From: Bradyrhizobium diazoefficiens
Lineage (GTDB): Bacteria > Pseudomonadota > Alphaproteobacteria > Rhizobiales > Xanthobacteraceae
Direction: 5' to 3'
NCBI RefSeq assembly: GCF_016612535.1
Contig: NZ_JAENXS010000007.1
Span: forward strand, 1 to 64,000
DNA: 64,000 nucleotides
Shown: in pieces, positions 31,878-47,349 of the stretch
How the letters are laid out: every line of letters starts with the position of its first letter
Position numbering within the stretch: position 1 is the stretch's first letter
Position numbers and translations under genes: made by a program
The notes under the pieces: generated by a model
Told to the model about the DNA's origin: nothing
Database searches by the model: none
The model's input: only the letters and a program-made list of their open reading frames with translations

Positions 31878-32606
31878 CTACTCGCCGTCGAGGCCGCTTT
31901 CGGCGAGTTCGCGCAGCGCATCGGTATCGAGCACGACGATGGCGCCGTGCTCGAGGCGGACCCAATTGCGCCCGGACCATGCGCGCAGTTGCTTGTTGAT
32001 GCTCTCGCGCGTCATCCCCACCATCTCGCTGATCTCCTGTTGGGTGATCGCGAGTGTGCCGCTGCCGGAGTCGAATTTGCGCTCCTCGGTGAGGCCGAGC
32101 AGTGCACTGGCAAGACGGCCCGGCAGATTCTGCAAGATGACCTGCTCGACCTGCTGGCTGGTCCAGCGCAGCCGCGCGCAGAGCAATTCGATGAATTTCA
32201 TCGCCAGCGCTGGCTGACTCTTCACGAACGGAAGGAAGTCGCGGCGGTCGATGATGTAGAGCTCGCAATTGGTGTTGGCGGTCGCATCCGCCGACCGCGG
32301 TGCACCATCAAGCACGGCGATCTCGCCGAATATCTCTCCGGGACCGATCAGATTGAGAATGGCATTCCGGCCATCCGGCGACGAGGAGGAAATCTTCACT
32401 GTTCCGGTGATCACCGCGAACAGATTGTTGCCGGGGTCCCCCTTGGCGGCAATCGTCGCACCGCGCTTGACCGTGGTGTGCTTGGCGTAGCGGCAGAGCT
32501 GATCGAGCGCTTCCGGATCCAGATCTGCAAAGATCGGATGCTTGCGCAGAACCGATAGTTTGTTGCCCGACGACTGCCGGGGGTCGCCGGTCTTGTCCTG
32601 AGGCAC
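31878..32606 (-). CDS. Crp/Fnr-family regulator without Fe-S cysteines
   Basis: The 242-residue protein has a cyclic-nucleotide-binding domain with the phosphate-cassette-like 'PGEIFGEIAVLDGAPRSADA' (in part) and a C-terminal winged helix 'ITQQEISEMVGMTRESINKQL' (in part). The cassette resembles functional cAMP-binding sites, so it may bind a nucleotide. The GTG at 32606 has TTAGGAGT six bases upstream; the open frame to 32807 upstream is not supported. No N-terminal cysteine cluster exists, unlike the second regulator at 33112. About 270 bases upstream (32607-32877) hold no gene. Confidence 0.85.
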   Translation of the reverse strand: MPQDKTGDPRQSSGNKLSVLRKHPIFADLDPEALDQLCRYAKHTTVKRGATIAAKGDPGNNLFAVITGTVKISSSSPDGRNAILNLIGPGEIFGEIAVLDGAPRSADATANTNCELYIIDRRDFLPFVKSQPALAMKFIELLCARLRWTSQQVEQVILQNLPGRLASALLGLTEERKFDSGSGTLAITQQEISEMVGMTRESINKQLRAWSGRNWVRLEHGAIVVLDTDALRELAESGLDGE

Positions 32607-32877
32607 GCCGGGACTCCTAAGACTGCGAGGCACTGGAGTTCCTGCGTAGTCAGTGTTGCCGGGCTTTTCAACCGGAAAGCACGGACACAGTTTGAGCCAA
32701 GTGTAGTTAAAATGCCGCGCTCGCCCACGGAAGCGCATCCGCAGGGTGCGTCGATGCATTTTGGCCCATGCAGAGTTGCAGAGACAGCACGTCGCAGTTG
32801 AACTCAAGGCCCCTGCGGAACGGCTGAACTGGCCGAGGAAGAATCTACGGCAGTCGCGCCAAAATGCGATAGCGATC

Positions 32878-33012
32878 TCAGGAACTTCGGGGCTTAGTAT
32901 GTGAATCGAGCCGACCGGCGCCGGTCTGTCGGTCCGCCCAAGCCAAAGCCAGGCCGAACGTCACAAACATGGCTACAACGGCGATGGTCACCAGCAGCGC
33001 GTCGATCGGCAT
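32878..33012 (-). CDS. 44-residue single-span membrane protein under an FNR box
   Basis: ATG 33012 is preceded by GGGAGGG at good spacing. The frame runs 44 codons to TGA at 32880-32878. Residues 4-25 are a continuous hydrophobic stretch (ALLVTIAVVAMFVTFGLALAW region), followed by a short polar tail: a typical one-pass small membrane protein. Upstream, a perfect FNR box (33067-33080) and a -10-like AATAAT (33045-33040 on this strand) are spaced as in FNR-activated promoters. Small proteins of this kind often sit in respiratory or stress complexes. No homologue can be named from sequence alone. Confidence 0.65.
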   Translation of the reverse strand: MPIDALLVTIAVVAMFVTFGLALAWADRQTGAGRLDSHTKPRSS

Positions 33013-33066
33013 CGTGCCCTCCCAAGCTTTGTTTCGGGCATTATTCGCGACGCATAACCGCTGTCA

Positions 33067-33080
33067 TTGATCGGGATCAA
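33067..33080 (-). promoter_or_regulatory. FNR box, perfect palindrome
   Basis: TTGATCGGGATCAA matches TTGAT-N4-ATCAA exactly. Its centre is about 41 bases from the transcription start expected from AATAAT at 33045-33040, and it ends 55 bases before the small membrane protein's ATG. Confidence 0.8.
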
Positions 33081-33111
33081 AAATCAGCGAGCACTCCGGC
33101 CGGCCCAGGAT

Positions 33112-33825
33112 TCAGGCCGCAGCCAGTGCCTCGACCCGCGCGGGATCGCGCAGGCCGATTCCGCCGTGAACGATCTCGATCGCTCCATGCCGTTCCAGCT
33201 TGGTGAAGGTACGGCTGACGGTCTCGATCGTCAGCCCGAGATAATCTGCGATGTCCTGCCGGCTCATCGGAAGTGGAACCGCGTTCGACGGTCCCTTGAG
33301 CAAGGACAGCCGCTCGCGCCAGCCGAGCAGAAACGTCGCGACCTTTTCATCCGCCGAGCGACGGCCGAGCAGAACCATGTGGTCGCGCGCCTGGCTCAAT
33401 TCGCGGATTGCCAGCTCGTTAATCCGTTTCAGCAGATGCGGCCGGTCCTCGATGAAGCGACCGAACGGTATCTTGGAGAACTGGCACACGGTCACCGCGC
33501 CAATCGCATCGGCCGAAAAATTGTGGCGGCCGGACATATTCATCCCCAGGAAATCGCCGGGGAGCGCAAAGCCCACAATCTGCCGCCGTCCGTCCGGCAG
33601 CAGTTTGTAGAGCCGCATCACCCCTTCAAGGAGATTGTAGAACGAGGTCGTGATGTCCTCTTCGGAGAACGCGGTCTCTCCCGCAGCGAAATGGACGCGA
33701 CGCCCGAGATGCTCGAACTCCCTGAGCTCGGCCGGGTCCAACGACGCACAAACCGCAAAGCCGCGGACCGCACAATCGCTGCAAAAATGGCCATTCGGCT
33801 CAATCATCGTCACCGAAGTTCTCAT
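33112..33825 (-). CDS. fnrN: FnrN/AadR-type oxygen-sensing transcription regulator
   Basis: A 237-residue FNR protein. Cys15, Cys18 and Cys26 at the N-terminus plus Cys114 reproduce the four-cysteine set that holds the oxygen-labile [4Fe-4S] cluster of FNR. The C-terminal recognition helix reads 'LTIETVSRTFTKLE', with the E-x2-S-R pattern that reads TTGA half sites. ATG 33825 has GGGAG seven bases upstream. The divergent region to the cytochrome c gene holds an FNR box at 33910-33923, with TAAAAT at 33889-33884 as a possible -10 for this gene, so it is probably autoregulated. It is the likely master of the eight FNR boxes between 33 and 46.6 kb. Confidence 0.9.
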   Translation of the reverse strand: MRTSVTMIEPNGHFCSDCAVRGFAVCASLDPAELREFEHLGRRVHFAAGETAFSEEDITTSFYNLLEGVMRLYKLLPDGRRQIVGFALPGDFLGMNMSGRHNFSADAIGAVTVCQFSKIPFGRFIEDRPHLLKRINELAIRELSQARDHMVLLGRRSADEKVATFLLGWRERLSLLKGPSNAVPLPMSRQDIADYLGLTIETVSRTFTKLERHGAIEIVHGGIGLRDPARVEALAAA

Positions 33826-33909
33826 CCACCGCTCCCGGCGCCGCCGGATCTCCGTACCTGACGGTACCCACCGCGCGGAGTGCATTTTACTGCATCACGC
33901 CAAAGTCGA

Positions 33910-33923
33910 TTGACCCAGATCAA
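33910..33923. promoter_or_regulatory. FNR box between fnrN and cytochrome c gene
   Basis: TTGACCCAGATCAA. For the cytochrome gene the -10-like TATTCT at 33945-33950 puts the box centre at about -41, the class II activator position. The same box can act on fnrN through TAAAAT at 33889-33884. Confidence 0.75.
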
Positions 33924-33979
33924 ATTTGACGCCCATCCCCGCCCTATTCTGCTTCGAGAATTCGACGGGACCGATTTCC

Positions 33980-34296
33980 ATGCTGCAAAACACGTTGTGC
34001 CACACCCTGATTGGGCTGCTTCTGATCACCCCGCGCTCGCTGCGCCGACCGCCGAACAACGCGGCAAGGCTTATGCGCGGGCCAATTGTGCGCACTGCCA
34101 TGCAATCGACCGTCGTTCCGAAAGCCCGCTCAAGATTCCTCAGCCGTTCAGGACCCTGCATCAACGCTACCCGATCGATACCCTCAAGGAAGCGCTCGCC
34201 GAAGGCATCTATACCGGCCACGCCGACATGCCCGCCTTCGAGCTCGATCCGGACCGGATCCACGACCTTCTGTCCTATTTCAAAACGCTCGAATAG
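33980..34296 (+). pseudogene. Class I cytochrome c interrupted by a one-base frameshift
   Basis: Frame A starts at ATG 33980 and encodes a signal-peptide-like segment (MLQNTLCHTLIGLLLIT). Frame B, entered after the C-run at 34029-34032, encodes PALAAPTAEQRGKAY, then the heme motif CAHCH and a later 'HADMPAF' with the axial Met, ending at 34296. Adding one base in the CCCC run joins both into one secreted c-type cytochrome of about 105 residues with an ALAA cleavage site. As it stands, frame A runs on into nonsense sequence to 34435. Either this is a real inactivating deletion or a homopolymer sequencing error. It has an FNR-type promoter and likely serves microaerobic electron transfer. Confidence 0.75.
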
Positions 34297-34309
34297 GCCG
34301 TTGGCGGCC

Positions 34310-35413
34310 CTACACCGCCTGCACCGTCCAACCGATCAGTTCTTTTGCGATGCGTGCGAAGGCCGCGTCGAACGCCGCGACCGCGGCAGCCGGCTCGACC
34401 TTGTCGAGCTTCTCGCTGGTCTCGACCAGACGTGACGCGATCACCTTGCCATTCTTGTCGACGATCCGCGCCGACAGTCCGATCTCGACCCGGGTCTCAC
34501 CGTCCGTGGCGATCCGGAAGCGCCTGATGTCGATCAGGAGCTGGCAGTCCGCCTGCCCGAGGTCGGCCGAGCGCAGCGGGGCGTGGGCGATATCGTAGTT
34601 CTCGAAACTGTCGATCAGCCGCGCCTGCATCAGTTTTGGAATGCTGTCCGCCCACATGAAGTCCGCAAAGCCAGAATTGTCACCAACTGGCGAGAATAGC
34701 ATGCGCTGCGTCTGGAGCATCGCGACAGCGGTCGGCTCGGGAATGGCCAGCGAAGCCGTTAGCGTCTTGCCGGCCGGCCCGAGATTTTGCGGGCTGCGGA
34801 GATCATAGGTGATCTTCTGCGTGGGCGTCCCACCGCCGGTCATCTTCTCGAGGCCCGCCAGAATGCCGTCGAGCTTGCCGGTGTTGCGCGCGAGGCCGTC
34901 GGAGAACGTCTTGAAATTCGCAATCGTATCCTTCAGAGGGCCGGAATTGTCCTCCAGCACGGTGTCGACGCGCCGCAGTGCATCGCGCGCCGCCTGTGTC
35001 ATGCTCTGGCCCGCGCCGGCTTCCGCGATCAAGGTCAGGGGCTCGCCCGACCTGGCGACAATCATGCCGCCCTCCAGTGTTACCACCGGCACGCCGGTCA
35101 GACCCTGGAAATCGAGGCCAACCTTGGTGTCGGTGCGCACCGGCGTCGCAGAGGCGACCGAGATCGTCGCGTTGACGAAGCGCGGATTGTCCAGCGCAAG
35201 GCCAAGCTGCGTCACCTCACCGACACGGATGCCGTTGAACAGCACGCCGGCGCCGACCAGAAGACCCGGCACCGGCCCCTGGAACTGCACGTGGTAATTC
35301 GTGCGCGGCCCGATGCCGCCAGTGTTGTTCAGCCAATAGACGAAGCCGAACACCGCAAGGATCGCGGCCAGCACGAAAGTGCCGATCAGCACATAGGGAG
35401 CGCGGGTTTCCAT
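34310..35413 (-). CDS. MCE (MlaD-like) protein fused to a PqiC-like auxiliary domain
   Basis: The 367-residue protein has an N-terminal membrane anchor (about 8-28), an MCE/MlaD domain (about 35-115, with 'VLFNGIRVGEV' and 'GLTGVPVVTLEGG'), a helical linker, and from about residue 200 a second domain resembling the ABC-type transport auxiliary component (PqiC/DUF330: 'YDLRSPQNLG', 'IPEPTAVAMLQTQRM', 'LIDIRRFRI'). In most bacteria the latter is a separate outer-membrane lipoprotein. Here there is no lipobox, so the domain is tethered to the inner membrane through the MCE part. It is the third gene of a phospholipid-transport-type ABC operon, three bases after the ATPase gene. Confidence 0.85.
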   Translation of the reverse strand: METRAPYVLIGTFVLAAILAVFGFVYWLNNTGGIGPRTNYHVQFQGPVPGLLVGAGVLFNGIRVGEVTQLGLALDNPRFVNATISVASATPVRTDTKVGLDFQGLTGVPVVTLEGGMIVARSGEPLTLIAEAGAGQSMTQAARDALRRVDTVLEDNSGPLKDTIANFKTFSDGLARNTGKLDGILAGLEKMTGGGTPTQKITYDLRSPQNLGPAGKTLTASLAIPEPTAVAMLQTQRMLFSPVGDNSGFADFMWADSIPKLMQARLIDSFENYDIAHAPLRSADLGQADCQLLIDIRRFRIATDGETRVEIGLSARIVDKNGKVIASRLVETSEKLDKVEPAAAVAAFDAAFARIAKELIGWTVQAV

Positions 35414-35416
35414 GTC

Positions 35417-36193
35417 TCATCTCATCTGTGGTTGCAACATCTGCGAGCGCTTGCCGTGGAAATAGGCGCGCACCCAGGGATGCTCGGACTGCAGCAGTTC
35501 GCGCATCGGACCGATCGCCACGATCCTGCCGTCGGCGAGCGCGGCGACCCGGTCGCAGACAGTGGTGAGGCTCGCGAGATCATGGGTGACCATGAAGACG
35601 GTGAGGCCCAAAGTCTTCTGCAGCGTCCTGATCAACGCGTCGAAATCTCCGGCGGCGATCGGATCAAGGCCGGAGGTCGGCTCGTCGAGGAAGAGGATCG
35701 GCGGATCGAGCGCGAGTGCGCGCGCCAGCGCCACGCGCTTGGTCATGCCGCCGGAGAGTTCCGACGGATATTTGTCGCCATCCTGCGGACGCAACCCGAC
35801 CATCTCGAGCTTGGCGATCGCCATCTCGTTCATCAGCTCCTGTGACAGCACGAGATTTTCGCGAAGCGGAAATTGTATGTTCTGCCGGACCGTCAATGAG
35901 GAGAACAGCGCCCCCTGCTGGAACAGGATGCCCCAAGTCGCAGCCGTGCCGCGGTCATGCGGGCCACCGATCGGCTGCCCCATGATTTCGATGGTGCCGC
36001 CGCGGCGCGGGATGAGGCCGATGATGGTGCGCATCAGCACCGACTTGCCGCCGCCGGATGCGCCGACGAGCCCGAGGATTTCACCGCGACGGACGTCGAG
36101 CGACAGATGGTCAAGCACGGTCTGGCGACCGAAACCGACCACAAGGTCACTGACGCGGATCGCGAGCTCGTCCTTCGGTTCGGGCATCTTCAC
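35417..36193 (-). CDS. MCE/Mla-type ABC transporter ATPase
   Basis: A 258-residue ATPase with Walker A 'GASGGGKS' near 44-51, Q-loop 'LFQQGALF', signature 'LSGGMTKR', Walker B 'ILFLDEPTSGLD' and switch 'VTHD', all typical of MlaF-like proteins. The GTG at 36193 overlaps the permease stop (GTGA), suggesting coupling; an ATG two codons in is an alternative. With the permease and MCE protein it should move lipids between inner membrane and periplasm. Confidence 0.9.
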   Translation of the reverse strand: MKMPEPKDELAIRVSDLVVGFGRQTVLDHLSLDVRRGEILGLVGASGGGKSVLMRTIIGLIPRRGGTIEIMGQPIGGPHDRGTAATWGILFQQGALFSSLTVRQNIQFPLRENLVLSQELMNEMAIAKLEMVGLRPQDGDKYPSELSGGMTKRVALARALALDPPILFLDEPTSGLDPIAAGDFDALIRTLQKTLGLTVFMVTHDLASLTTVCDRVAALADGRIVAIGPMRELLQSEHPWVRAYFHGKRSQMLQPQMR

Positions 36194-37332
36194 ATTCCGA
36201 TTGAGGCGAAGAAGATCGCGAACAAGCCATCGAGCACGATCACCAGGAAGATCGACTTGACCACCGATGTGGTGGTCTGCCGCCCTAGCGACTCCGCGCT
36301 GCCCTTGACGCGCAATCCCTCGCTGCAGGCAACGATCCCGATCACCAGCGCCATGAACGGCGCCTTCAGGATCCCGACCTCGAAATGAGTGACGGAGACG
36401 GCTTCATGGAGTCGCGCGATGTAGATCGCAGGCCCCATGTCGCCGTAGAATTGCGCGACCAGGCCGCCGCCGTAGAGCGCGGCAATCGATCCGATGAAGG
36501 AGAGAATTGGCAGAGCGATGACCAGAGCGGCAACCCGCGGCAGGATCAGGACGTCGACGGGATCGAGCCCCATGGTCGTGAGCGCATCAATCTCCTCGCG
36601 CATTTTCATCGAGCCGAGCTCGGCGGTATAGGCGCTCCCTGACCGGCCGGCGACCATGATGGCGACAATCAGCAGGCCGAGCTCGCGCAGGACGAGGATG
36701 CCGACCATGTCGACGGTGTAGGACTCCGCGCCGAACCTGCGGAAGTGGAAAAACCCTTGCTGGGCGATGATGGCGCCGATCAGGAACGTGATCAGCATGA
36801 CGATGGGAATCGCCTGCAATCCGATCCGGTTGAGCTGATAGACCAGCGATGTCAGCCGCAACGAGCGGGGCCGTCGCACGACACCGGTCACGGCCATGAA
36901 CAGAGCGCCGAGCATTTGCAAAAAGATCGCGACGTCTTCGCGGGCACCGAGCGTGGCCTTGCCGAGCTCGTGCAGCCTGAGCAGGACCGGGTTGGGTGCG
37001 GACGCCGGCGGCGGCGTGTGGCGATTGACCTGGCGCACTTCCTCCAGCAAGCCGCTGAAATGATCGGCCACGCCAACGATCTCAGCTGATCGCTCCGACG
37101 ATGCCACCTTGCGGGACAGCTTCTCCAAAATCCAAGCGCCGAGCGTATCGAGCGCGCTGATGCCGGACATGTCCAGTGTCACGGCTCTCGATCGATCGAC
37201 ATCCGCGCCGACCGATCGGGACAACATTTCGAGCGCCGACACGTTGGCTGCGATCCACTGCCCCTCGGGTCGCAGTTCAAGCGTATCGCCAGACGGCGTT
37301 GCCAGCAGCAGCGGTTCCGAATTCACGCGCAT
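36190..37332 (-). CDS. STAS-MlaE fusion permease of MCE-type ABC transporter
   Basis: The 380-residue protein combines an N-terminal STAS-like domain (about 1-95, 'VTLDMSGISALDTLGAWIL' in part) with a MlaE permease domain (about 130-380, 'FLIGAIIAQQGFFHFRRFG', 'VAGRSGSAYTAELGSMKMREEIDAL' in part). In E. coli the STAS part is a separate protein, MlaB; fusion forms are known. It leads the three-gene operon. An FNR box at 37393-37406 with TAGAAA at 37371-37366 sits upstream, so lipid traffic is predicted to respond to low oxygen. AGAGGA is very close to the start codon. Confidence 0.88.
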   Translation of the reverse strand: MRVNSEPLLLATPSGDTLELRPEGQWIAANVSALEMLSRSVGADVDRSRAVTLDMSGISALDTLGAWILEKLSRKVASSERSAEIVGVADHFSGLLEEVRQVNRHTPPPASAPNPVLLRLHELGKATLGAREDVAIFLQMLGALFMAVTGVVRRPRSLRLTSLVYQLNRIGLQAIPIVMLITFLIGAIIAQQGFFHFRRFGAESYTVDMVGILVLRELGLLIVAIMVAGRSGSAYTAELGSMKMREEIDALTTMGLDPVDVLILPRVAALVIALPILSFIGSIAALYGGGLVAQFYGDMGPAIYIARLHEAVSVTHFEVGILKAPFMALVIGIVACSEGLRVKGSAESLGRQTTTSVVKSIFLVIVLDGLFAIFFASIGM

Positions 37333-37392
37333 ATCCTCTTGAGACGACTGGTCCCGGATCGTTTGTTTCTAGGCCGACATAGGGTTGGTCGA

Positions 37393-37406
37393 TTGACCTG
37401 CGTCAA
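37393..37406 (-). promoter_or_regulatory. FNR box for the MCE operon
   Basis: TTGACCTGCGTCAA, with -10-like TAGAAA at 37371-37366 placing it at about -41. The identical 14-mer recurs at 46543-46556. Confidence 0.7.
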
Positions 37407-37424
37407 ACACGAACACCCGTCCGC

Positions 37425-37438
37425 TTGATGCAAATCAA
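37425..37438 (+). promoter_or_regulatory. FNR box for the YqjD-like operon, perfect palindrome
   Basis: TTGATGCAAATCAA matches TTGAT-N4-ATCAA. CATAGT at 37459-37464 is the -10 candidate; the ATG follows 52 bases after the box. Confidence 0.75.
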
Positions 37439-37489
37439 TGGTTGTTGGTTTCGCGTGCATAGTCTCTCGCCATTCGATGGAGACCACCA

Positions 37490-37765
37490 ATGTTCGACAC
37501 CGGCAGAATGAGCGACGAGTTGAGGGCGCTGAAGGTCGACGTCACGCGCCTCTTGAGCGCGGCCGGCGAGGATATGTTCGAGAACTCAAAGGACCGTGCC
37601 GAGGCCCTCGCTGATCAGATCAGCGCGGCGCTGGCCGAACTCGGCGAAACCGTCAGCGAGGAGCAGGACCAGTTGCATGATCTCATCGCGGAGCGCCCTG
37701 TCGCCTCGCTCGCTTCCGCCTTTGCGCTCGGCGTGGTGGTCGGCTTCATGCTGAGGAGGCATTAG
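37490..37765 (+). CDS. ElaB/YqjD (DUF883)-like membrane-anchored protein
   Basis: A 91-residue protein with a charged helical N-terminal region (about 1-65) and a C-terminal glycine-containing membrane helix 'ASAFALGVVVGFMLRR', the plan of YqjD/ElaB proteins that bind ribosomes or tether to the inner membrane in stationary phase. A GGAG site precedes the ATG. It directly precedes the holin-X-like gene and is preceded by a perfect FNR box, linking it to low-oxygen growth arrest. Confidence 0.82.
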   Translation: MFDTGRMSDELRALKVDVTRLLSAAGEDMFENSKDRAEALADQISAALAELGETVSEEQDQLHDLIAERPVASLASAFALGVVVGFMLRRH

Positions 37766-38254
37766 GTGAATACGGAGAACGTGGTCAAACATCTGCGCGC
37801 TCTGTGGCGTACGGACAGGATCATCGCGGATATTCGGCTGCGTCACCTGCTGATCGGCCTCGGCCTGCAGGCCTTCGCGGCGCTGATCGCCGCATTCGGG
37901 CTCCTGATGCTGGAACTGTCCGCTTATTTTGCCCTGGTCCAGATCTGGAGCGCGATCGCCGCAGCCTCGGTCCTTGGAGCGATCAATTTCGTCATCGCGA
38001 CGGTTTTGTTCATGGTCGCCGGCAGCTCGCCCTCAGGCCGCGACATCGAGCTCGCCAATGAGATCCATCGTACGTCGATCGAGGCTCTCCAAGTCGAAGC
38101 CCGGGCGTTTCAGGCCCAATTGACCGGCGCGGTTCATCATCCGCTCAGCACGATCGTGCCGGTGCTGGTGCCGCTGATCGCGATCATCGTCAAGAACATG
38201 CGGAAGACGGCCAGGGAGAGTGCCGCAGACGCATCGTCCGAAGCGCGCTCGTAG
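37766..38254 (+). CDS. Holin-X/DUF1469-like two-span membrane protein
   Basis: A 162-residue protein starting at GTG immediately after the previous stop. It has two hydrophobic hairpin segments (about 27-85: 'LLIGLGLQAFAALIAAFGLLML' in part and 'VLGAINFVIATVLFMVAG'), a helical loop and a third hydrophobic stretch near 127-143. This resembles the YqjE/holin-X proteins that accompany YqjD genes. Role likely envelope-related; not a phage holin, as no phage genes are nearby. Confidence 0.75.
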   Translation: MNTENVVKHLRALWRTDRIIADIRLRHLLIGLGLQAFAALIAAFGLLMLELSAYFALVQIWSAIAAASVLGAINFVIATVLFMVAGSSPSGRDIELANEIHRTSIEALQVEARAFQAQLTGAVHHPLSTIVPVLVPLIAIIVKNMRKTARESAADASSEARS

Positions 38255-38264
38255 CCGGCGCGCG

Positions 38265-40955
38265 TCAGAGCTTCAGCCGGACTTCACAGATGTCCGGCTC
38301 GGTCGAATCCGGCTTGATCTCGAAACCAAGTTGCCGGCACATATCGAGCATCACGACGTTCTCCTTGAGCACGTCGCCCGAGATGGTCTTCAGACCTTCC
38401 GATTTTGCATAGTCGATGATCAACTGCATCAAGGCCCAGCCGAGCCCCCTGCCCTTGAGGTCGGACCGCAGCAGGATCGCGTACTCACCGCTCTCGTAGA
38501 TCGAGTCCGAGTGAAGGCGCACCACTCCGACCATCTCGTTCTTGTCATCGAACGCAATGAACGCCATCGCGCGCGCATAATCGAGCTGAGTCAGGCGCGC
38601 GATGAACTCGTGGGTAAATTCCTTCATCGGCGCGAAGAAGCGCAGGCGAAGATCGTGGGCCGTGACGTGACGCAGGAACTCGTGAATGGTCGGCTCGTCC
38701 TCGGGACGGAGGGGCCGCACGGAGATGCGCCAGCCGTCCTTGAGCGCGAGGCGGCGCTCCCATTGCGACGGATAGGCTCGGACGGCGAAATTGGCGGGGC
38801 CGGAGCCTGCAAATTTCCTCTGCAGCAGTCCCACCGCGACGCGGGCATCGACGGCCGTCACGCCGGTTTCGTCCGCCAGCAGCGGATTAATATCAAGTTC
38901 GCGGACTTCGGGGATGTCAGTCGCCATTTGCGCCAGCTTGACGAGAACCATGGCGACAGCGTCCTGCTTGACGGCCGGCACATCCCGGTACGCGGGCAAC
39001 AATCGCGACACACGTGTGCGCTCGATCAGGTCGCGGGCGAGCTGCAAATCGAGCGGCGGCAGCCCCAAGGCCTTGTCGTTGATGATCTCTACCGCCGTCC
39101 CGCCACGGCCGAACACGACAACGGTGCCGAAAGTCGGATCGTCGGCCAAGCCCAGGATCAGTTCGCGCGCCTTCGGCTTGACGACCATTGCCTGGACGAT
39201 GAGGCCGGAGATGCGGGCTTCGGGCCACAACTTCTTCGCCCGCGCGAGAATATCAGCGGCCGCCGTGCGTACCGCAACCGGCGTGGTCAGATTGAGCACG
39301 ACACCGCCGACATCGGATTTGTGCACGATGTCGCGCGACATGATCTTGAGCACGACTGTGGCGCCTTGCGCGAATATCTCGTCCGCGTAGGCGACGGCCT
39401 GCTCGATATCTGCCGCCGCGTAGGTTGGCACGATTGCGATGTCATAGCAGCCAAGCAGATGCTTGATCTCGACGGGTTCGAGCCATTTTCGGCCATCGGC
39501 GATAGCCGCCGCGACGATCTGTCTCGCAGCCGCAACATCCGGTACGAAGGTGTCCGGCATCGCCGGCGGAACCTGGCTGAGTTCGTCGACCACTTCGCGA
39601 TGCCGGACCAGATGCATGAAGCCACGCACCGCGTCATCTTCAGTCGGATAGTTCGGAATGCCGGCGTCGGACAGCGTCGCAATGATTCCCTGATCGGCTC
39701 CGATCCAGGCCGCAAGCACAGGCTTGGCCCAACTGCGGTGCTTCTGGCGGTACTTGCCGACAAGCTCCGTCACGGTCGTCGCGATCGCGGTGGCCGAAGC
39801 GATCGCGGTCTGGACGTTGAGCACGAGGACCGCATCATTCTCGGAGTCGTCGAGCAGCACTTCCAGCGCCGCGGCATAGCGCGACGCATCGGCGTCGCCG
39901 ACGATATCGATAGGATTTGCGCCGGACCAGGTCGGCGGCAGCACCGCGTCGAGCTTCTGACGCGTGTCTGGTGTCATGGGTGCGGGAACTCCGCCAAGGT
40001 CCGCCAGCCGATCGACCGCCAGAACGCCGATACCGCCACCATTGGTCAGAATGGCGAGGCGCTTTCCCGCCGGCGATCCGATCCGGCCAAGCGTCTCGGC
40101 ACAATCGAACAGCTCGCGCAGATCGGATACTCGGAGAACGCCGGCGCGGCGGAAGGCCGCATCATAGACGGCGTCCGCGCCAGCGAGCGCGCCCGTGTGC
40201 GTGGCGGCAGCCTTCGCACCTTGCGCCATGCGACCGGACTTCACCACGACGACGGGCTTCACGCGTGCTGCAGCGCGCGCCGCCGACATGAATTTCCGCG
40301 CGTCCTTGATGGCCTCGATATAGAGCAGGATCGCGCGGGTCTTGTGGTCCATCGCGAAATGGTCGAGCAGGTCCGCGATGTCGACGTCGATCTGATCGCC
40401 GATAGTGACGATGCCGGAAAAGCCGACGCCGCGCTGGGCGGCCCAGTCCACCATACCCGCCGCGATCGCACCCGACTGCGAGATCAGCGCGAGGTTTCCC
40501 GCCGCGGGCATGTGCGCTGCGAAACTTGCGTTGAGGCTTGCGCCGGGCATCATGATGCCGAGGCAGTTGGGGCCTATCAGCCGCATGCCATGTTTGCGGG
40601 CAGCAGCGGTGGCGGCTTCCTGCAGCGAGCCCGGTCCATGACCAAGCCCCGCCGAAACGATCAAGGCGCCGGCCGAGCCGCGACGGCCGGCCCGGTCGAT
40701 GATGTCAGGCACCGCGTGCGCCGGCGCGGTGATGACGACGAGTTCGGGCACGAATGGCAGTTGCTCCAGGCTACTTACTGCCGCGACGCCGCCGATTTCG
40801 GCATGGCGTGGGTTCACCAAACCGAACAGCCCCTTGAATTCCGCCTTGCGAATGTTCTCCAGCACCGCGCGTCCGACGGAGACCGGCCGGGAGCTTGCGC
40901 CGACCAGCGCGACCGACCGGGGCGACAACAGGTTTTTCAGGCGGTAGGTCGACAT
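38265..40955 (-). CDS. Acyl-CoA synthetase (NDP-forming)-GNAT fusion, Pat-like protein acetyltransferase
   Basis: The 896-residue protein has the layout of bacterial lysine acetyltransferase Pat/PatZ: CoA-binding domain (about 1-130, 'ALVGAS'), succinyl-CoA-ligase-like domains with 'ISQSGAIA' and 'AAATHTGALAG', an ATP-grasp domain (about 480-700), and a C-terminal GNAT domain (about 735-896) with 'RSDLKGRGLGWALM', the acetyl-CoA pyrophosphate loop. His253 in the THTGALAG motif corresponds, as I recall the family, to the phosphohistidine of ADP-forming acetyl-CoA synthetases, a residue reported lost in Salmonella Pat. It follows the universal stress gene by 70 bases, so it is probably FNR-controlled. 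Confidence 0.87.
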   Translation of the reverse strand: MSTYRLKNLLSPRSVALVGASSRPVSVGRAVLENIRKAEFKGLFGLVNPRHAEIGGVAAVSSLEQLPFVPELVVITAPAHAVPDIIDRAGRRGSAGALIVSAGLGHGPGSLQEAATAAARKHGMRLIGPNCLGIMMPGASLNASFAAHMPAAGNLALISQSGAIAAGMVDWAAQRGVGFSGIVTIGDQIDVDIADLLDHFAMDHKTRAILLYIEAIKDARKFMSAARAAARVKPVVVVKSGRMAQGAKAAATHTGALAGADAVYDAAFRRAGVLRVSDLRELFDCAETLGRIGSPAGKRLAILTNGGGIGVLAVDRLADLGGVPAPMTPDTRQKLDAVLPPTWSGANPIDIVGDADASRYAAALEVLLDDSENDAVLVLNVQTAIASATAIATTVTELVGKYRQKHRSWAKPVLAAWIGADQGIIATLSDAGIPNYPTEDDAVRGFMHLVRHREVVDELSQVPPAMPDTFVPDVAAARQIVAAAIADGRKWLEPVEIKHLLGCYDIAIVPTYAAADIEQAVAYADEIFAQGATVVLKIMSRDIVHKSDVGGVVLNLTTPVAVRTAAADILARAKKLWPEARISGLIVQAMVVKPKARELILGLADDPTFGTVVVFGRGGTAVEIINDKALGLPPLDLQLARDLIERTRVSRLLPAYRDVPAVKQDAVAMVLVKLAQMATDIPEVRELDINPLLADETGVTAVDARVAVGLLQRKFAGSGPANFAVRAYPSQWERRLALKDGWRISVRPLRPEDEPTIHEFLRHVTAHDLRLRFFAPMKEFTHEFIARLTQLDYARAMAFIAFDDKNEMVGVVRLHSDSIYESGEYAILLRSDLKGRGLGWALMQLIIDYAKSEGLKTISGDVLKENVVMLDMCRQLGFEIKPDSTEPDICEVRLKL

Positions 40956-41025
40956 GACTGCATTCGTCCGTTCGGGCGACGGGTCCGATGGCTGGACACC
41001 TGGCTTTGGCGCGTAGAGAACGCCC

Positions 41026-41865
41026 CTAGTGCGACATCATTACCCAGCACGGTGGCTGGCCGATGACCGTCTTGGTCACGCCGCCCCAAACGGTCTCGTT
41101 CAGACGCGAATGGTGGTAGGCGCCCATGACGATGGCGTCGATGCTGTGGGATTGCGCCCAGCTCCCCAGCACCTTGCCGATCGAGCTGCCACCGCCCTTC
41201 ACGGTTTCGAAGGACGCATAGACCCCGTGTTCCCTAAGATGATCGACGAGACTTGTGCCGGATTGCGTGGTGGAGTCGCCCTTGTCGTCCGCCACCGTGA
41301 TCACGCGCACCACGGCGGCGGCCTGCAGGATCGGCAATGCATCGCCGACTGCACGCGCGGCACGCGCCGAGTTGTCCCAGGCAATCACGACATTCTCGAA
41401 CTCCGGCCGCAGCGCCTCCACATGCTGCTCCGGACAGAGCAGCAGCGGCCGGCCGGATTGGAACAGGAAGGTTTCAACGATATTTTCGGTTCGACTATCG
41501 TGCGGCTTCACGGGGATCAGCGTAAGATCGCTGAAGCGCGCGTGCTCAGCCAAAGTTGATGCAATCTGGTCCGCCGGCACCCTGCCTGATCGGCTTTGAG
41601 CGCGAATGCCGATACGCGAAGTCGCATTGGTGAATGCGTTCAGGAGCTGCTGCGTGTCGCCCGCCTCGCGCACGAGGCTGAGTTCGGCGGCCTCCGGGTC
41701 ATCAGGGAATACCACCTTCGGCCGCACGAAGACATCTTCCTCGAGCGCAAGCCCAGTCACCCTAGCACCGAGGTCGGCCGCAACGGCCACGCACTTCTCA
41801 ATCGCGGCCAGCGTGGGGGCACGCGGCTGGCCAATGAGCGGCAGAAAGACGTCCTTGATGGGCAT
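41026..41865 (-). CDS. Tandem universal stress protein (two UspA domains)
   Basis: The 279-residue protein has two UspA folds; the second ends with 'MGAYHHSRLNETVWGGVTKTVI' (quoted in part), close to the G-x2-G-x9-G(S/T) ATP-binding motif with the first glycine changed. AGGAG lies eight bases before ATG 41865. It leads an operon with the Pat-like gene. The FNR box at 41913-41926 and TATTTT at 41891-41886 form a class II promoter. Tandem Usp proteins are typical of hypoxia stimulons. Confidence 0.88.
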   Translation of the reverse strand: MPIKDVFLPLIGQPRAPTLAAIEKCVAVAADLGARVTGLALEEDVFVRPKVVFPDDPEAAELSLVREAGDTQQLLNAFTNATSRIGIRAQSRSGRVPADQIASTLAEHARFSDLTLIPVKPHDSRTENIVETFLFQSGRPLLLCPEQHVEALRPEFENVVIAWDNSARAARAVGDALPILQAAAVVRVITVADDKGDSTTQSGTSLVDHLREHGVYASFETVKGGGSSIGKVLGSWAQSHSIDAIVMGAYHHSRLNETVWGGVTKTVIGQPPCWVMMSH

Positions 41866-41912
41866 CGGGATTCTCCTTGCCGGCCAAAATAGGCCGTCTT
41901 TGGTCCGGACGC

Positions 41913-41926
41913 TTGATCCTCCTCAA
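41913..41926 (-). promoter_or_regulatory. FNR box for the usp-pat operon
   Basis: TTGATCCTCCTCAA. -10-like TATTTT at 41891-41886 places its centre near -41; the ATG is 48 bases away. Confidence 0.75.
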
Positions 41927-41963
41927 GCCGGGAAAACTCCGCACCGCCAGCCGACGACAAGCC

Positions 41964-41977
41964 TTGACGGAAGTCAA
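41964..41977 (+). promoter_or_regulatory. FNR box for the kinase-CHAD operon
   Basis: TTGACGGAAGTCAA, inside a longer CCTTGAC-N4-GTCAAGG inverted repeat. The expected -10 position holds only a weak TAAGGG (41999-42004). Confidence 0.65.
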
Positions 41978-42061
41978 GGACTGGTCGTGATCCCGCGCTA
42001 AGGGTTACCCTGGTTCGCGGCAGGGCCGCCTGGCGCCCCATCTGCATGGATACCGGCAGAG

Positions 42062-43594
42062 ATGACAGACAATTCTGCGACCCAGGAACGGATCTTCGCG
42101 GCATTGACGGCGCATGCCGGCGTGAAGCGGATCGACACGCACGCAGCTTCGGTCTTCCTTGACGGGACGCGCGCGCTGAAGATCAAGCGGGCGGTCAAGT
42201 TTCCATTCCTCGACTATTCGACGCTCGAGAAACGCAAGGCCGCCTGCGAGGAGGAGGTGCGGATCAACCGGCCGCACGCACCACAAATCTATCATCGCGT
42301 CGTGGCCATCACAGAAGAGCCAGACGGATCAGTGAAGGTCGACGGCCGCGGCCATCCGATCGAATACGCAGTCGACATGTCGCGTTTCGACGAAGGCCGG
42401 ACGCTGGATCATCTGGCGAAGGCGCTACAGTTCGACGTTGACCTTGCGTCAGCCATCGCCGACGCGATCGTGGCGTCGCACGCGGCAGCGACGCCTGCCG
42501 ATGGCAGGGCATGGGTTTCCTCGATCCCTGCCCTGATCGACGGCAACAGCAATGGGCTGCGGAACGGCAATCATCTTCAGGGCGCGGAGATCGAACAGCT
42601 GACGCAAGCTTCCCACGAGGCATTCCTGCGCGCCCGCCCCCTGCTGGAGGAGCGCGGTCGCCGGGGATTCGTGCGCCGTTGCCACGGCGACCTGCATTTG
42701 GCGAATATCGTGCTGATCGAGCGGCAGCCCGTCCTGTTCGACGCCATCGAATTCGACGCGAAGATGGCGACTGTCGACGTGCTCTACGACCTCGCATTCA
42801 CACTGATGGATCTGTTGCGCCACGATCAGTCGCTTGCCGCAAACATCGTCCTGAATCGCTATCTTGCTGCGACGTGGGCCGAAAATCTCGACGCGCTCGG
42901 CGTGCTGCCGCTGTTCATGTCCGTACGGGCGGCGATCCGCGCCCAGGTGGCGCTGGCACGGCTGAAGCCGCCCCATTCCGACGATGCCGGCATCCTCGAC
43001 GAAGCACGCTGCTATTTTGACCTTACCCGGGCGCTGATCCACCCTCCCTCCCCGCGTCTGATCGGGGTGGGCGGACTGTCGGGTACCGGCAAGACGGTTT
43101 TGGCGCGCGCGCTCGCGCCGACTGTGGCGCCGCAGCCGGGCGCCGTGGTCTTGCGCAGCGACGTCATTCGCAAGCAGATGTTCGGGCTCGTCGACACGGA
43201 GCGGTTGCCGCCATCCGCATACACGCCCGAGCTTGCGGAACGGGTCTACGAGACGTTGGCCCAATGCGCCCGCCGTGTGCTCGCCCAGGGCCATTCGGCG
43301 ATCGTCGATGGCGTATTCGCGCGCGATTTCGAGCGAGATGCCTTCGCCACGCTAGCCCGGGATTGCAACGTGCCTCTCACCGGCCTCTTCCTGGTCGCGG
43401 ATCTGGAGACCCGGCAGGCCCGAATCGGTAGCCGCCGAGGCGACGCATCCGACGCCACGCAAGAGGTTGCTGCGTTGCAAGAGCACTATAATATCGGGCA
43501 TATCGGTTGGGCGACCATCGACGCATCCGGGACACAAGCGCAGACGCTCCAGAGCTGCCTGGACGCGATCGCCGAGAGCAGTAAGGCAATCTGA
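42062..43594 (+). CDS. Bifunctional APH-like kinase and P-loop ATP-binding protein
   Basis: The 510-residue protein has an N-terminal aminoglycoside-phosphotransferase-like fold with the Brenner motif HGDLHLANI starting at His208 and 'LFDAIEFD', and a C-terminal P-loop kinase domain with Walker A 'GLSGTGKT' near 338-345 and a zeta-toxin/gluconate-kinase-like 'LRSDVIRK'. Such two-kinase proteins of unknown substrate recur in proteobacterial stress clusters. It is not expected to confer resistance by itself. It forms an operon with the CHAD gene. Confidence 0.85.
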   Translation: MTDNSATQERIFAALTAHAGVKRIDTHAASVFLDGTRALKIKRAVKFPFLDYSTLEKRKAACEEEVRINRPHAPQIYHRVVAITEEPDGSVKVDGRGHPIEYAVDMSRFDEGRTLDHLAKALQFDVDLASAIADAIVASHAAATPADGRAWVSSIPALIDGNSNGLRNGNHLQGAEIEQLTQASHEAFLRARPLLEERGRRGFVRRCHGDLHLANIVLIERQPVLFDAIEFDAKMATVDVLYDLAFTLMDLLRHDQSLAANIVLNRYLAATWAENLDALGVLPLFMSVRAAIRAQVALARLKPPHSDDAGILDEARCYFDLTRALIHPPSPRLIGVGGLSGTGKTVLARALAPTVAPQPGAVVLRSDVIRKQMFGLVDTERLPPSAYTPELAERVYETLAQCARRVLAQGHSAIVDGVFARDFERDAFATLARDCNVPLTGLFLVADLETRQARIGSRRGDASDATQEVAALQEHYNIGHIGWATIDASGTQAQTLQSCLDAIAESSKAI

Positions 43595-43609
43595 TTGGCG
43601 CGGACCAGG

Positions 43610-44584
43610 ATGGCGCGACCCACCAAGAGTTCGACGGCGACCGCTCGCGTCAGGCCGGCCCCAGGCCGCGCTACGCTGCCGGGCCGCCTCAGCCCCGGCA
43701 TGGCCTGCGACACGGCCTTTCGAATCATCGCCCGCCGTCACCTCGCCGCCGTCCTCGCCCAGCACGAGGGCACCTGCCGTGGCGATCCGGGCGCGCTGCA
43801 CCAGATCCGAATCGCGCTGACCCATCTGCGCACCGCCATTCGCTTCTTTTCGCCCATGGTCGACGATGCGCTGCGCCCCAAAGTCTGGGCCGAGTTGAGG
43901 TGGCTGAATAGCCAGCTTGGCATGGTGCGCGATCTCGACGTGGCGATTGAACGCATCGTGGCCGAGACCGGCGACGAGCTCGCCGTGATCGCCGAGCTGC
44001 AGCACTGGGACGAAAAGCGCGCCGAGAGCCATCGCCTGCTGGCTCGCGCGCTGCAATCCGCGCGATATCGCCGCCTGGTCGAACAGATATCGAGCTGGAT
44101 CGAGAGCGGCCCGTGGTCAACCCGGCGCAGCAAGGAGGCCATCAGACTACGCCGCGGCCCGCTTGCCGATCACGCGACAGCGCAGCTGATCGAATGGGAA
44201 AGGACGCTACTCAGGAAAGCCCGAAAGTTGCGCAAGCTCGACGTCGAGAAACGGCACAAGCTGCGGATTCTCAACAAACGACTGACCTATTCGATCGAGT
44301 CGCTGGAGGATTTGTTCGCCGAAAAGTCGCTGACGAAGCAGAAGTCGATCCTCAAGCAATTGCGCAAGGCGCAAAAGTCCCTCGGGCGGTTGAACGACGA
44401 TGCGCGCGGTCAGACGCTGGCCGCATCACTGAACGAGGCCATACCCGCGGCTAGTATTCGCTTTCTCGACCGCAAGCGGGAAAAGAAGCTGTTGCGAACC
44501 GCTTCGACGGCATATCGCAAACTGGACAAGGCCAAGCCCTTCCGCTCTTCCGACCTGACGCCGGATTCGGAGCCGGAGGACTAA
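43610..44584 (+). CDS. CHAD-domain protein
   Basis: A protein of about 324 residues with a CHAD domain from about residue 25: 'ALHQIRIALTHLRTAIRFF' (in part), 'LGMVRDLDVAIER', 'KLRKLDVEKRHKLRILNKRL' (in part) and 'LGRLNDDARG' carry its conserved histidines and basic residues, which bind polyphosphate. CHAD proteins localise to polyphosphate granules. The start is uncertain: ATG 43610 is used; a TTG at 43595, just after the kinase stop, gives five more residues. Its stop overlaps that of the convergent PHB synthase gene within CTAA at 44581-44584. Confidence 0.88.
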   Translation: MARPTKSSTATARVRPAPGRATLPGRLSPGMACDTAFRIIARRHLAAVLAQHEGTCRGDPGALHQIRIALTHLRTAIRFFSPMVDDALRPKVWAELRWLNSQLGMVRDLDVAIERIVAETGDELAVIAELQHWDEKRAESHRLLARALQSARYRRLVEQISSWIESGPWSTRRSKEAIRLRRGPLADHATAQLIEWERTLLRKARKLRKLDVEKRHKLRILNKRLTYSIESLEDLFAEKSLTKQKSILKQLRKAQKSLGRLNDDARGQTLAASLNEAIPAASIRFLDRKREKKLLRTASTAYRKLDKAKPFRSSDLTPDSEPED

Positions 44585-46413
44585 ATGTGGATGTAGTCGC
44601 CGGGTGCATCCGGCAGGCTATCGATGTCTCCATACCCGATCGGCGGCGGATCACAGGGCTCGCCGGACCTCGCGATGAGCCAGCGGGTCCATTCCGGCCA
44701 CCACGATCCCTCGACATGGGGCGCCAGCTTCAGCCATTCATCCGGACCGACATAGGGCCCGTCAGCGGCCTTGGTCATCACCTGATAGTTGTGTCCAGGC
44801 TCGTCGGGCGGCGCGACGACACCGGCATTGTGGCCACCGCTGGTCAACAGGAAGGTCAGGTCGGCATCGACCTGATAGTGGAGTTTGTGCACGGACCGCC
44901 ACGGCGCGACGTGATCGCCGAGCGTGCCGACCACGAACATCGGCACATGAATGTCGGAAAGCGAAATGCTTTGGCCCTCGACACGGTAACGTCCTTCGGC
45001 GAGATCATTGTCAAGGAACAATTTGCGCAGATATTCCGAATGCATGCGATAGGGCAGTCGCGTCGCATCGGCGTTCCAGGCCATCAGATCGCTGAGCGGT
45101 GCCGCCTCGCCCATCAAATAATCGTGCGACAAATGCGACCAGATCAGATCGTTCGAACGCAGCAGCGCGAACGCGCCGGACATCTGTGCCGTGTCGAGGT
45201 AGCCTCGTTGCCACATCATGTCTTCGAGGAAGGCAACCTGGCTTTCGTTGATAAAGAGCGTCAGCTCGCCGGCCTCGGTGAAGTCGGTCTGCGCGGCAAG
45301 GAGAGTGACGGTGCCGAGACGCTCGTCGCCGTCGCGCGCCATCGCGGCGGCAGCGATCGACAGCAAGGTGCCGCCCAGACAATAGCCGAGCGCATGGATC
45401 TTCTGCCCGGGCAGGATTCGGCCGATCGCATCCAGCGCGGCCATTACGCCGAGCCTGCGATAGTCGTCGAACGCAACATCCCGATCCCTGGCATCCGCGT
45501 TGCGCCATGAGACCGCAAACACGGTAAAGCCCTGATCGGTGAGATATTTGACCAGCGAATTTTGCGGCGACAGATCGAGAATATAGTATTTCATGATCCA
45601 GGCCGGCACGATCAGGATCGGCTCGGCCTGCACTTTCGCGGTCGTCGGATAGTACTGGATCAGTTCGATCAGCTCGTTGCGGTAGACGACCTTGCCAGGA
45701 GAGGCCGCAACCGTTTTGCCGACGACAAACTGCTCGTTGCCGACGGGTTTGGCAGCCGAGAGCATCCGCATCAGGTCGCCGCACCAGTTCTGCCAACCGA
45801 AGACAAAATTCTCTCCTCCACTCTGAAACGTCTTCTCCAGCACCTCCGGGTTGGTCATTACGAAATTCGACGGCGCCAGCATATCGAGCATCTGGCGCAC
45901 CGAGAATTCGACGATGGCTTCGTTCGCCCGCGAGACGCCGCGAACGCCGGTCGCGGCGTCGTGCCACCAGCGCTCTCCGAGCAGGAACGCTTGCGCAAGC
46001 AGATTAAAGGGCGGAGCCTCCCATTGCGGCTGCTTGAAACGGCGGTCTTGTCCCTCCGGTCGGATCACGGACCAGGGCGTTTGCCCCGGTGACGTCGCGT
46101 GCGCGACGGCTTTCAAAAAACGGCTGGTGTCACGAAGGACGTTGCCAGCGAGGTCCATCCGTCGCTGCGGCGCCGCGGCAAGATGGGAGCTCCAATCGAG
46201 CCAGGCGAGCAGCAAGGCCGACGGCGAAATCCCGCCCGTGAACCGCGCCAACATCGCATGGAACGTGCGGTCGAAAAGGTAGGGTTCTGATGCGGATTTG
46301 GTGGCTGAGGTCGGGGCAGTCGTCGCAGATGGAGCGACGCCCGCAAGGGGGGCAACGGAAGGCGCCGGCAACACCGGCTCTTCGGTCCGAGGAAGGATTT
46401 TCACAACGCTCAT
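44581..46413 (-). CDS. phaC: Poly(3-hydroxybutyrate) polymerase, class I PhaC
   Basis: The 610-residue protein matches class I PHA synthases in length and motifs. The lipase-like box GYCLGG contains the catalytic Cys345; downstream are 'PLSDLMAWNADATRLP' and 'SGGHNAGVV', supplying the catalytic Asp-His region. N-terminal about 55 residues are Pro/Ala-rich. ATG 46413 has AGGA upstream; a TTG at 46422 is in frame. It has its own FNR-type promoter (box 46479-46492, TATCCT at 46456-46451). No phaAB or phasin lies next to it, suggesting a second synthase used when oxygen is low and reducing power accumulates. Confidence 0.9.
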   Translation of the reverse strand: MSVVKILPRTEEPVLPAPSVAPLAGVAPSATTAPTSATKSASEPYLFDRTFHAMLARFTGGISPSALLLAWLDWSSHLAAAPQRRMDLAGNVLRDTSRFLKAVAHATSPGQTPWSVIRPEGQDRRFKQPQWEAPPFNLLAQAFLLGERWWHDAATGVRGVSRANEAIVEFSVRQMLDMLAPSNFVMTNPEVLEKTFQSGGENFVFGWQNWCGDLMRMLSAAKPVGNEQFVVGKTVAASPGKVVYRNELIELIQYYPTTAKVQAEPILIVPAWIMKYYILDLSPQNSLVKYLTDQGFTVFAVSWRNADARDRDVAFDDYRRLGVMAALDAIGRILPGQKIHALGYCLGGTLLSIAAAAMARDGDERLGTVTLLAAQTDFTEAGELTLFINESQVAFLEDMMWQRGYLDTAQMSGAFALLRSNDLIWSHLSHDYLMGEAAPLSDLMAWNADATRLPYRMHSEYLRKLFLDNDLAEGRYRVEGQSISLSDIHVPMFVVGTLGDHVAPWRSVHKLHYQVDADLTFLLTSGGHNAGVVAPPDEPGHNYQVMTKAADGPYVGPDEWLKLAPHVEGSWWPEWTRWLIARSGEPCDPPPIGYGDIDSLPDAPGDYIHI

Positions 46414-46478
46414 GGCCAGCAATTCCTGCGCGCTTCGGTCTGTGAGCGGCAGGATATGGCCGCCCGCTCGGAAGAGCG

Positions 46479-46492
46479 TTGAGCTGCATCAA
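46479..46492 (-). promoter_or_regulatory. FNR box for phaC
   Basis: TTGAGCTGCATCAA. TATCCT at 46456-46451 on the same strand is exactly at the -10 position expected for a box at -41.5. An imperfect second site TTGATCACAATCGC lies at 46502-46515. Confidence 0.72.
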
Positions 46493-46542
46493 TTCCAGAG
46501 ATTGATCACAATCGCTTAACCAGGAAGGACTGGCCCGTCGGC

Positions 46543-46556
46543 TTGACCTGCGTCAA
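46543..46556 (+). promoter_or_regulatory. FNR box for the CBS-BON gene
   Basis: TTGACCTGCGTCAA, identical to 37393-37406. TAGATT at 46578-46583 is the -10 candidate; the ATG lies 65 bases after the box. Confidence 0.72.
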
Positions 46557-46620
46557 GTCCCACCGCGGGGCCTGATCTAGATTTTGTCTATCGCAGTTTG
46601 ATAATCAAGCGGAGCATTCC

Positions 46621-47349
46621 ATGCGCGCCCACCAGATCATGACCCGGTCGGTCATCTCGGTCACGCCCGATACCAGCATCGTCGATGCGGCGAACATCAT
46701 GCTGAAGCGTCACGTCAGCGGCCTCACCGTGGTCGACGACAGCGGCAAGCTGGTCGGCGTGGTCTCGGAGGGCGACTTCATCCGCCGTAGCGAAATCGGC
46801 ACCGGGCGCAAGCGCGGCCGCTGGCTGCGGTTCATTCTCGGCTCGGGCAAGACGGCCAGCGATTTTGTCCACGAACACGGCCGCAAGGTATCGGAAGTCA
46901 TGACCGCATCGCCTGTCACCATTACCGAAGATACTGCGCTTGCAGAGATCGTCGATCTCATGGAACGGAACAACGTGAAGCGGCTACCGGTGGTTCGCGG
47001 CGACAAGGTCGTCGGCATCGTGTCGCGCGCCAACCTTCTGCAGACCGTCGCGGGCCTCGCCCGCGAGGTTCCGGATCCGACCGCCGACGACGATCACATC
47101 CGCGGCCACATTATTGATGCCATGGAGAAGCACGAGTGGTGCCCGTTCGGGCTGAACGTCATTGTGCGTGACGGCGTCGTTCACTTGAGCGGCGTCATTA
47201 CCGAGGAGCGTGCGCGGCAGGCAGCGGTCGTTGCCGCGGAGAATGTCGATGGTGTCAAGAAAGTGCACGACCATCTCTGCTGGGTCGACACGATGTCAGG
47301 CGTCTATCTGAATTCACCCGAAGACGACGACCTCGCCAAGGCAAGTTGA
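46621..47349 (+). CDS. CBS-pair and BON domain protein
   Basis: The 242-residue protein has two CBS motifs (about 5-60, 'TVVDDSGKLVGVVSEGD' in part; about 88-145, 'RLPVVRGDKVVGIVSRANL' in part) and a BON domain (about 160-225). CBS pairs bind adenosyl nucleotides; BON domains bind lipid or membranes. Together they suggest an energy-state sensor near the membrane. GGAG precedes the ATG. FNR box upstream. Confidence 0.88.
   Translation: MRAHQIMTRSVISVTPDTSIVDAANIMLKRHVSGLTVVDDSGKLVGVVSEGDFIRRSEIGTGRKRGRWLRFILGSGKTASDFVHEHGRKVSEVMTASPVTITEDTALAEIVDLMERNNVKRLPVVRGDKVVGIVSRANLLQTVAGLAREVPDPTADDDHIRGHIIDAMEKHEWCPFGLNVIVRDGVVHLSGVITEERARQAAVVAAENVDGVKKVHDHLCWVDTMSGVYLNSPEDDDLAKAS

Follow-up and report, generated by a model that had tools for sequence, protein, structure and literature searches.

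A dense group of FNR/FixK boxes in Bradyrhizobium diazoefficiens, very probably the known fixK1 cluster, and a small predicted membrane protein within it

The closest described system to the locus considered here is the fixK1 locus of Bradyrhizobium diazoefficiens USDA110/110spc4 (blr6059–blr6074). The locus itself is a group of eight TTGA-N6-TCAA boxes at positions 33,067–46,556 of the first 64,000 nucleotides of contig NZ_JAENXS010000007.1 of the same species (assembly GCF_016612535.1); this whole stretch is termed the window. In the published locus, microoxic growth changes protein levels (log2, PMC6515984 Table 2) of bll6060 by 1.3, bll6063 by 2.2, bll6064 by 2.8, bll6065 by 3.4, bll6068 by 4.3, bll6069 by 2.7, bll6073 by 3.3 and blr6074 by 2.6, and the same paper marks bll6069, bll6073 and blr6074 as direct FixK2 targets. 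Deletion of fixK2 gave fold changes of −92.6 for bsr6066, −20.9 for blr6067, −27.9 for phaC2/bll6073 and −90.9 for blr6074 (PMC9104804 Table 2, quoting Mesa 2008), and the same paper names in vitro transcription with FixK2 as validation for phaC2. The fixK1 gene is given as a direct FixK2 target in PMC10888616, CycS is described as a soluble cytochrome found in nitrate-grown cells (PMC6710368), and possible FnrN/FixK control of phbC is noted in PMC4999443. Dufour 2010 (PMC2908626) assigns to the FixK regulon a cytochrome c, a CBS protein and a kinase, together with the ATPase, permease and binding protein of an ABC transporter, with blr6070, blr6071 and blr6074 as FixK2-dependent; in Rhodopseudomonas palustris, RPA4235, RPA4236, RPA4238, RPA4239 and an id printed RSP4237 are FixK-dependent.

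We consider it very likely, at roughly nine chances in ten, that the window cluster represents the fixK1 cluster of Bradyrhizobium, which forms a dense portion of the microoxic regulon already described for FixLJ-FixK2(-FixK1). Counterparts that could be placed occur in the same order and direction as in USDA110/110spc4. They begin with a cyclase, a CRP-like protein, an FnrN-like protein and a cytochrome c (blr6059, bll6060, bll6061, blr6062), continue with an MCE protein, an ATPase and MlaE (bll6063–6065) and two small proteins (bsr6066, blr6067), and end with a GNAT fusion, a universal stress protein (Usp), PhaC and a CBS protein (bll6068, bll6069, bll6073, blr6074). The counterpart names are those of PMC6515984, PMC9104804 and PMC5017801. 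By the id pairing in PMC2908626 the kinase fits blr6071, and blr6070, an alcohol dehydrogenase by the same pairing, has no counterpart between usp and the kinase gene here; for the CHAD protein no B. diazoefficiens counterpart was placed. A further difference is that cycS is frameshifted in the window strain. The letters of the window phaC2 box are identical to those of the published phaC2 box. We infer that the ABC transporter of Dufour 2010 is the MCE operon. As excerpted, the FixK list of that paper holds no Usp, Pat-like protein or polyhydroxybutyrate (PHB) synthase, and its FNR list has a Usp; its lists also include unnamed hypothetical proteins, among which the small protein described below may be found. 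An earlier note on this DNA had described a low-oxygen FNR-type regulon, and this stands, the counterparts being induced in microoxia (PMC6515984 Table 2). The regulon is real but already known, with no new gene set; as it is the FixK2 cluster described before, no new stimulon has to be invoked. The features, with boxes lettered by intergenic region (A–E), are as follows.

31878..32807, minus strand: CRP/FNR-like regulator (counterpart of bll6060) lacking an FNR-type recognition helix; coordinates of the longest frame, true start uncertain
32878..33012, minus strand: 44-amino-acid single-helix small protein, absent from the earlier note's list; putative membrane location, judged from its sequence
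33067..33080, minus strand: FNR/FixK box A, facing the small open reading frame (ORF); AATAAT at 33045–33040, predicted start about 33033
33112..33885, minus strand: FixK1/FnrN-type regulator, C35-x2-C38-x7-C46 plus C134, with helix IETVSR; translation probably begins near 33825
33910..33923, no single strand: FNR/FixK box B, common to both genes; TAAAAT toward fnrN, TATTCT toward the cytochrome gene
33980..34296, plus strand: cycS-like cytochrome c gene; a frameshift lies between the signal peptide and the haem domain
34310..37332, minus strand: MCE/Mla-type lipid transporter operon of MlaE, ATPase and MCE protein (Pfam)
37393..37406, minus strand: FNR/FixK box C1, facing mlaE; TAGAAA at 37371–37366
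37425..37438, plus strand: FNR/FixK box C2, facing the YqjD-like gene; TAGTCT at 37460–37465
37490..38254, plus strand: 91-amino-acid protein and 162-amino-acid holin-like membrane protein, counterparts of bsr6066–blr6067
38265..40955, minus strand: Pat-like acyl-CoA ligase/GNAT fusion, counterpart of bll6068
41026..41865, minus strand: universal stress protein, counterpart of bll6069
41913..41926, minus strand: FNR/FixK box D1, facing usp; TATTTT at 41891–41886
41964..41977, plus strand: FNR/FixK box D2, facing the kinase gene; −10 weak, TAAGGG or TACCCT
42062..44584, plus strand: APH/AAA kinase fusion and CHAD protein
44581..46413, minus strand: PHB synthase, corresponding to phaC2 (bll6073); the closest NCBIfam model is class I, with a score under its cut-off
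46479..46492, minus strand: FNR/FixK box E1, facing phaC2; TATCCT at 46456–46451
46543..46556, plus strand: FNR/FixK box E2, facing the CBS gene; TAGATT at 46578–46583
46621..47349, plus strand: CBS-BON protein, counterpart of blr6074

The order of the CRP/FNR-like regulator gene is that of the table in PMC6515984. The 91-amino-acid protein, called YqjD-like in the earlier note, matched no Pfam family, and the Pat-like gene and usp, separated by a gap of 70 bp, are probably in one operon. A CxxCH frame for the cycS-like protein was found in 54 of 59 relatives, with a signal-like stretch in the same frame by eye, and was lacking in five; the frameshift here may be a real change or an assembly error.

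A search of the whole window returned exactly the eight boxes of the earlier note (33067, 33910, 37393, 37425, 41913, 41964, 46479 and 46543) and no further one, whereas window shuffles held 0.54 boxes on average. In the genome (7.99 Mb, 14 contigs) there are 104 matches, against 28 for a backward-read control, and the densest 13.5 kb is the window cluster with its eight boxes, the next best having three. All eight are intergenic, as had been claimed, provided that the longest frames of fnrN (from 33885) and of the cytochrome gene (from 33880) are too long at their 5′ ends; the later starts were taken as true because the longest frames run into the predicted promoter. The longest fnrN frame begins inside the predicted −10, which is why its true start is put at probably about 33825. 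The arrangement is not mostly one box per divergent promoter: three regions carry two outward-facing boxes each, one has a single box read both ways, and in the remaining one a single box faces the small gene that the earlier note did not list.

A −10-like hexamer lies 28–35 bases from the box centre in eight of the nine gene-facing directions of the window (AATAAT, TAAAAT, TATTCT, TAGAAA, TAGTCT, TATTTT, TATCCT and TAGATT), the ninth, kinase-facing 41964, having only a weak TAAGGG or the farther TACCCT. The earlier note set the distance of about 41 bases on the wrong element, the hexamer, though the class II FNR geometry that it named holds: a hexamer at 28–35 puts the predicted transcription start near 41. 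For the boxes this is the FixK2/FNR class II start spacing, weak only toward the kinase gene. A weighted −10 score was used beside the strict TAnnnT rule because the latter misses mlaE, the small ORF and the kinase gene. The summed hexamer score at 28–30 exceeded all 100,000 draws from the same regions, and individual scores were 5–9 in the gene-facing directions versus 1–4 in seven directions without a gene. Genome-wide, 17 boxes have TAnnnT at class II distance, six of them in the window cluster, and the control has none.

Conservation was examined in the best 80 of 197 matches to the Pat-like protein, mostly from Bradyrhizobium, taken with their flanks. Loci with both flanking genes in place numbered 56, 59, 56, 61 and 47 for regions A to E; the others (cut off, rearranged or unmatched) were dropped from the region counts. 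Region A has one box in 50 of its loci and none in six, region B one in all 59, and region C two in 52, one in three and three in one. Region D has two in 58, one in two and none in one, and region E two in all 47. Retention is thus 89–100%, compared with a median of 0.018 for 528 other 4+4 words of the same regions, none of which equals the box of its region. A TAnnnT facing the gene at 28–31 is kept for fnrN (98%), the cytochrome (86%), yqjD (100% of 52 two-box loci), usp (95%), phaC and cbs (96% each, 47 loci), six of the nine promoters, against 0–3% in the wrong directions. At this position the hexamers kept before mlaE and the small ORF are also A/T-rich but of another kind (CTAGAA and AATAAT-like).

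The boxes published for bsr6066 (at −105, TTGACCTGTCTCAA) and blr6074 (at −143, TTGAGCTGCATCAA) match the distal boxes of the relatives, whose median first bases are −106 and −142. These letters were found in 34 and 41 loci, respectively, and not in 22 and six. The box bearing them is the first of exactly two in 33 of 34 and in 41 of 41 loci, the remaining locus having three. The second, nearer box, at medians of −71 and −78, carries the well-placed hexamer. The comparison used the relatives' loci, not the USDA110 sequence, and the published table may list just one box per gene. These positions suggest that each gene of a divergent pair would use its near box, a point to heed when these promoters are mutated.

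The window regulator has C35, C38, C46 and C134 and the helix IETVSR, and aligns with the structures of FixK2 and FNR. The cysteines agree with the earlier description of a regulator with four Fe-S cysteines inside the cluster, and the helix is of the TTGA-recognising kind. The cysteines may hold an oxygen-labile 4Fe-4S cluster, and the protein would correspond to FixK1 (FixK1/FnrN-type), its counterpart bll6061 presumably being fixK1. The FNR of Escherichia coli and Aliivibrio and the FnrN/AadR group likewise have four cysteines, and the FNR recognition helix, E..SR, is like that of the window regulator. The latter differs in its spacing, C-x2-C-x7-C, and in that its gene is under FixK2 in close relatives. 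The fixK1 and cycS genes reportedly share one FixK2 box read both ways, with cycS needing fixK1; region B here would presumably be that shared box.

FixL, FixJ and FixK2 are encoded elsewhere in the genome, FixK2 (locus L146, 10400–11107; 461 bits to 4i2o) lying behind FixL and FixJ. A TTGA-N6-TCAA box at L146 9836–9849 overlaps the end of fixJ, upstream of fixK2. At another locus (G000:C1:3243516-3259785, L147) a second ccoN-type oxidase gene has three boxes and a FixK-like regulator nearby. Judging from the published counterparts, low oxygen would activate FixLJ, which would induce fixK2, and FixK2 would then activate fixK1, cycS, the MCE operon, bsr6066–blr6067, usp-pat, kinase-CHAD, phaC2 and the CBS gene. 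The shared fixK1-cycS box may also be a site for FixK1. Each gene of the three divergent regions is faced by a box of its own.

Several points weigh against the assignment to the FixK2 regulon. The evidence for this strain is sequence, with predicted start sites, and the acting protein cannot be read from DNA, because FNR, FixK and DNR proteins use the same box. An FNR-type helix is carried by three of the 22 CRP-type hits above cut-off in the genome (the window fnrN, FixK2 and the FixK-like protein at L113). In PMC6515984 bll6060, bll6063–6065 and bll6068 are unmarked as direct FixK2 targets. The relatives are mostly of one genus and hence not independent, and individual control words reach a conservation of 0.46 in region A, 0.68 in B and 0.54 in D. 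Few loci have TAnnnT at the class II position before the kinase gene (12% of 58) or mlaE (6% of 52), and none of 50 has it before the small ORF. Lastly, 81 of the 512 boxes of the 80 loci lie outside the five regions, in 29 loci, and 431 inside; several of the outside boxes have letters like those of the five regions and stand in loci whose flanking genes could not be placed.

Part of this would also fit the assumption of the earlier note that direct activation of the whole cluster comes mainly from its own FnrN/FixK1 and not from FixK2. The gene of this protein belongs to the cluster, the protein has the cysteines together with an FNR-type helix, and activation of cycS is said to have required an intact fixK1; the box, moreover, is common to FNR and FixK proteins (PMC2908626). 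Such a role is nevertheless unlikely, since deletion of fixK2 alone lowers four cluster genes 21–93 fold in B. diazoefficiens (PMC9104804), fixK1 is itself under FixK2, and Dufour 2010 (PMC2908626) assigns several cluster genes to FixK, not FNR. Less probable still, and unsupported, is a dormancy programme comparable to the hypoxia stimulons of other bacteria, which the earlier note had proposed from gene content (Usp, CBS, PHB synthase and the YqjD-like protein): the published induction of the counterparts is in microoxic cells and, for some, in soybean bacteroids (PMC6515984). Chance matches, of which the backward control leads one to expect about 28 among the genome's 104, can be dismissed for the cluster by its density, by shuffles of which none of 100 reached eight boxes, and by the conservation of footprints and hexamer spacing relative to control words.

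Two things are added to the known FixK2 cluster: the box assignments above, and a widespread small protein, putatively of the membrane and apparently expressed at low oxygen, which routine annotation may overlook. The centre of box 33067 is 61 bases ahead of a 44-codon frame, and this box probably drives a small, apparently undescribed membrane protein. In tblastn over all 80 relatives 58 matched and 22 did not, 54 of the 58 having a perfect box within 250 bases upstream; this search replaced a fixed text pattern (45 of 69 loci, with 12 of 24 pattern-less stretches empty). The small gene and its box are both missing from L033 and L034, which are among the closest relatives and retain the two adjacent regulators, and likewise from L054 and L064; L051 and L062 have the small gene but no perfect box. 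Over 27 codons in 46 sequences the ratio of non-synonymous to synonymous polymorphism (pN/pS) is 0.19 in frame, compared with 1.4–1.9 in the shifted frames.

No NCBIfam or Pfam family matched the window protein, and with nine aligned members two families matched one member each (best E 0.031), which places the protein in no curated family. Database relatives are hypothetical proteins (19 matches for the single sequence and 219 for the alignment, names from the 120 matches listed). One copy (P0052) is named a sulfate transport permease subunit in its public record, probably a misannotation. The small protein is described in none of the literature searched, which did not extend to supplements. 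The excerpts of PMC4842269 and PMC6515984 hold no passage on it, the small ORF is missing from the fixK1-locus tables examined, and neither bll6060 nor bll6061 appears in the main text of PMC5082802 as excerpted.

Within the taxonomic family, a search at E up to 0.001 matched 96 of 248 genomes in 20 of 47 genera, counting the source genome; many of the hits were weak and some contained a stop codon, and seven of the 16 other own-genus genomes were unmatched. Of 40 places examined out of 100 listed, mostly the better scoring, 36 carry a perfect box in the 250 bases upstream; random stretches of that length from these loci have one in 7.5% of cases. Outside the window genus the figure is 31 of 35 places, with at least one in each of 15 genera. 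The box centre lies 57–71 bases before the start in 34 of the 36 boxed places; position 31 is A in 23 of the 36, and position 35 is T in 29. A class-wide search matched seven of 385 genomes, own included, and outside the family the sole readable relative (L189) has a box one letter off. Neighbours of the small ORF vary in 19 loci, and FixJ-like response-regulator genes, judged by eye, are near in four. It is likely that these are an undescribed family of single-helix membrane proteins of about 33–47 amino acids, a core low-oxygen target in the family of Bradyrhizobium, each copy forming its own unit of box, −10, short leader and tiny gene that is kept with its box though the neighbours differ between genera. 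It could be guessed that the protein is a single-helix accessory of a low-oxygen membrane complex. One of the relatives mentioned above, L033, has a record titled Frankia sp. RB7 but carries a Bradyrhizobium cluster at 93% protein identity, and is probably mislabelled.

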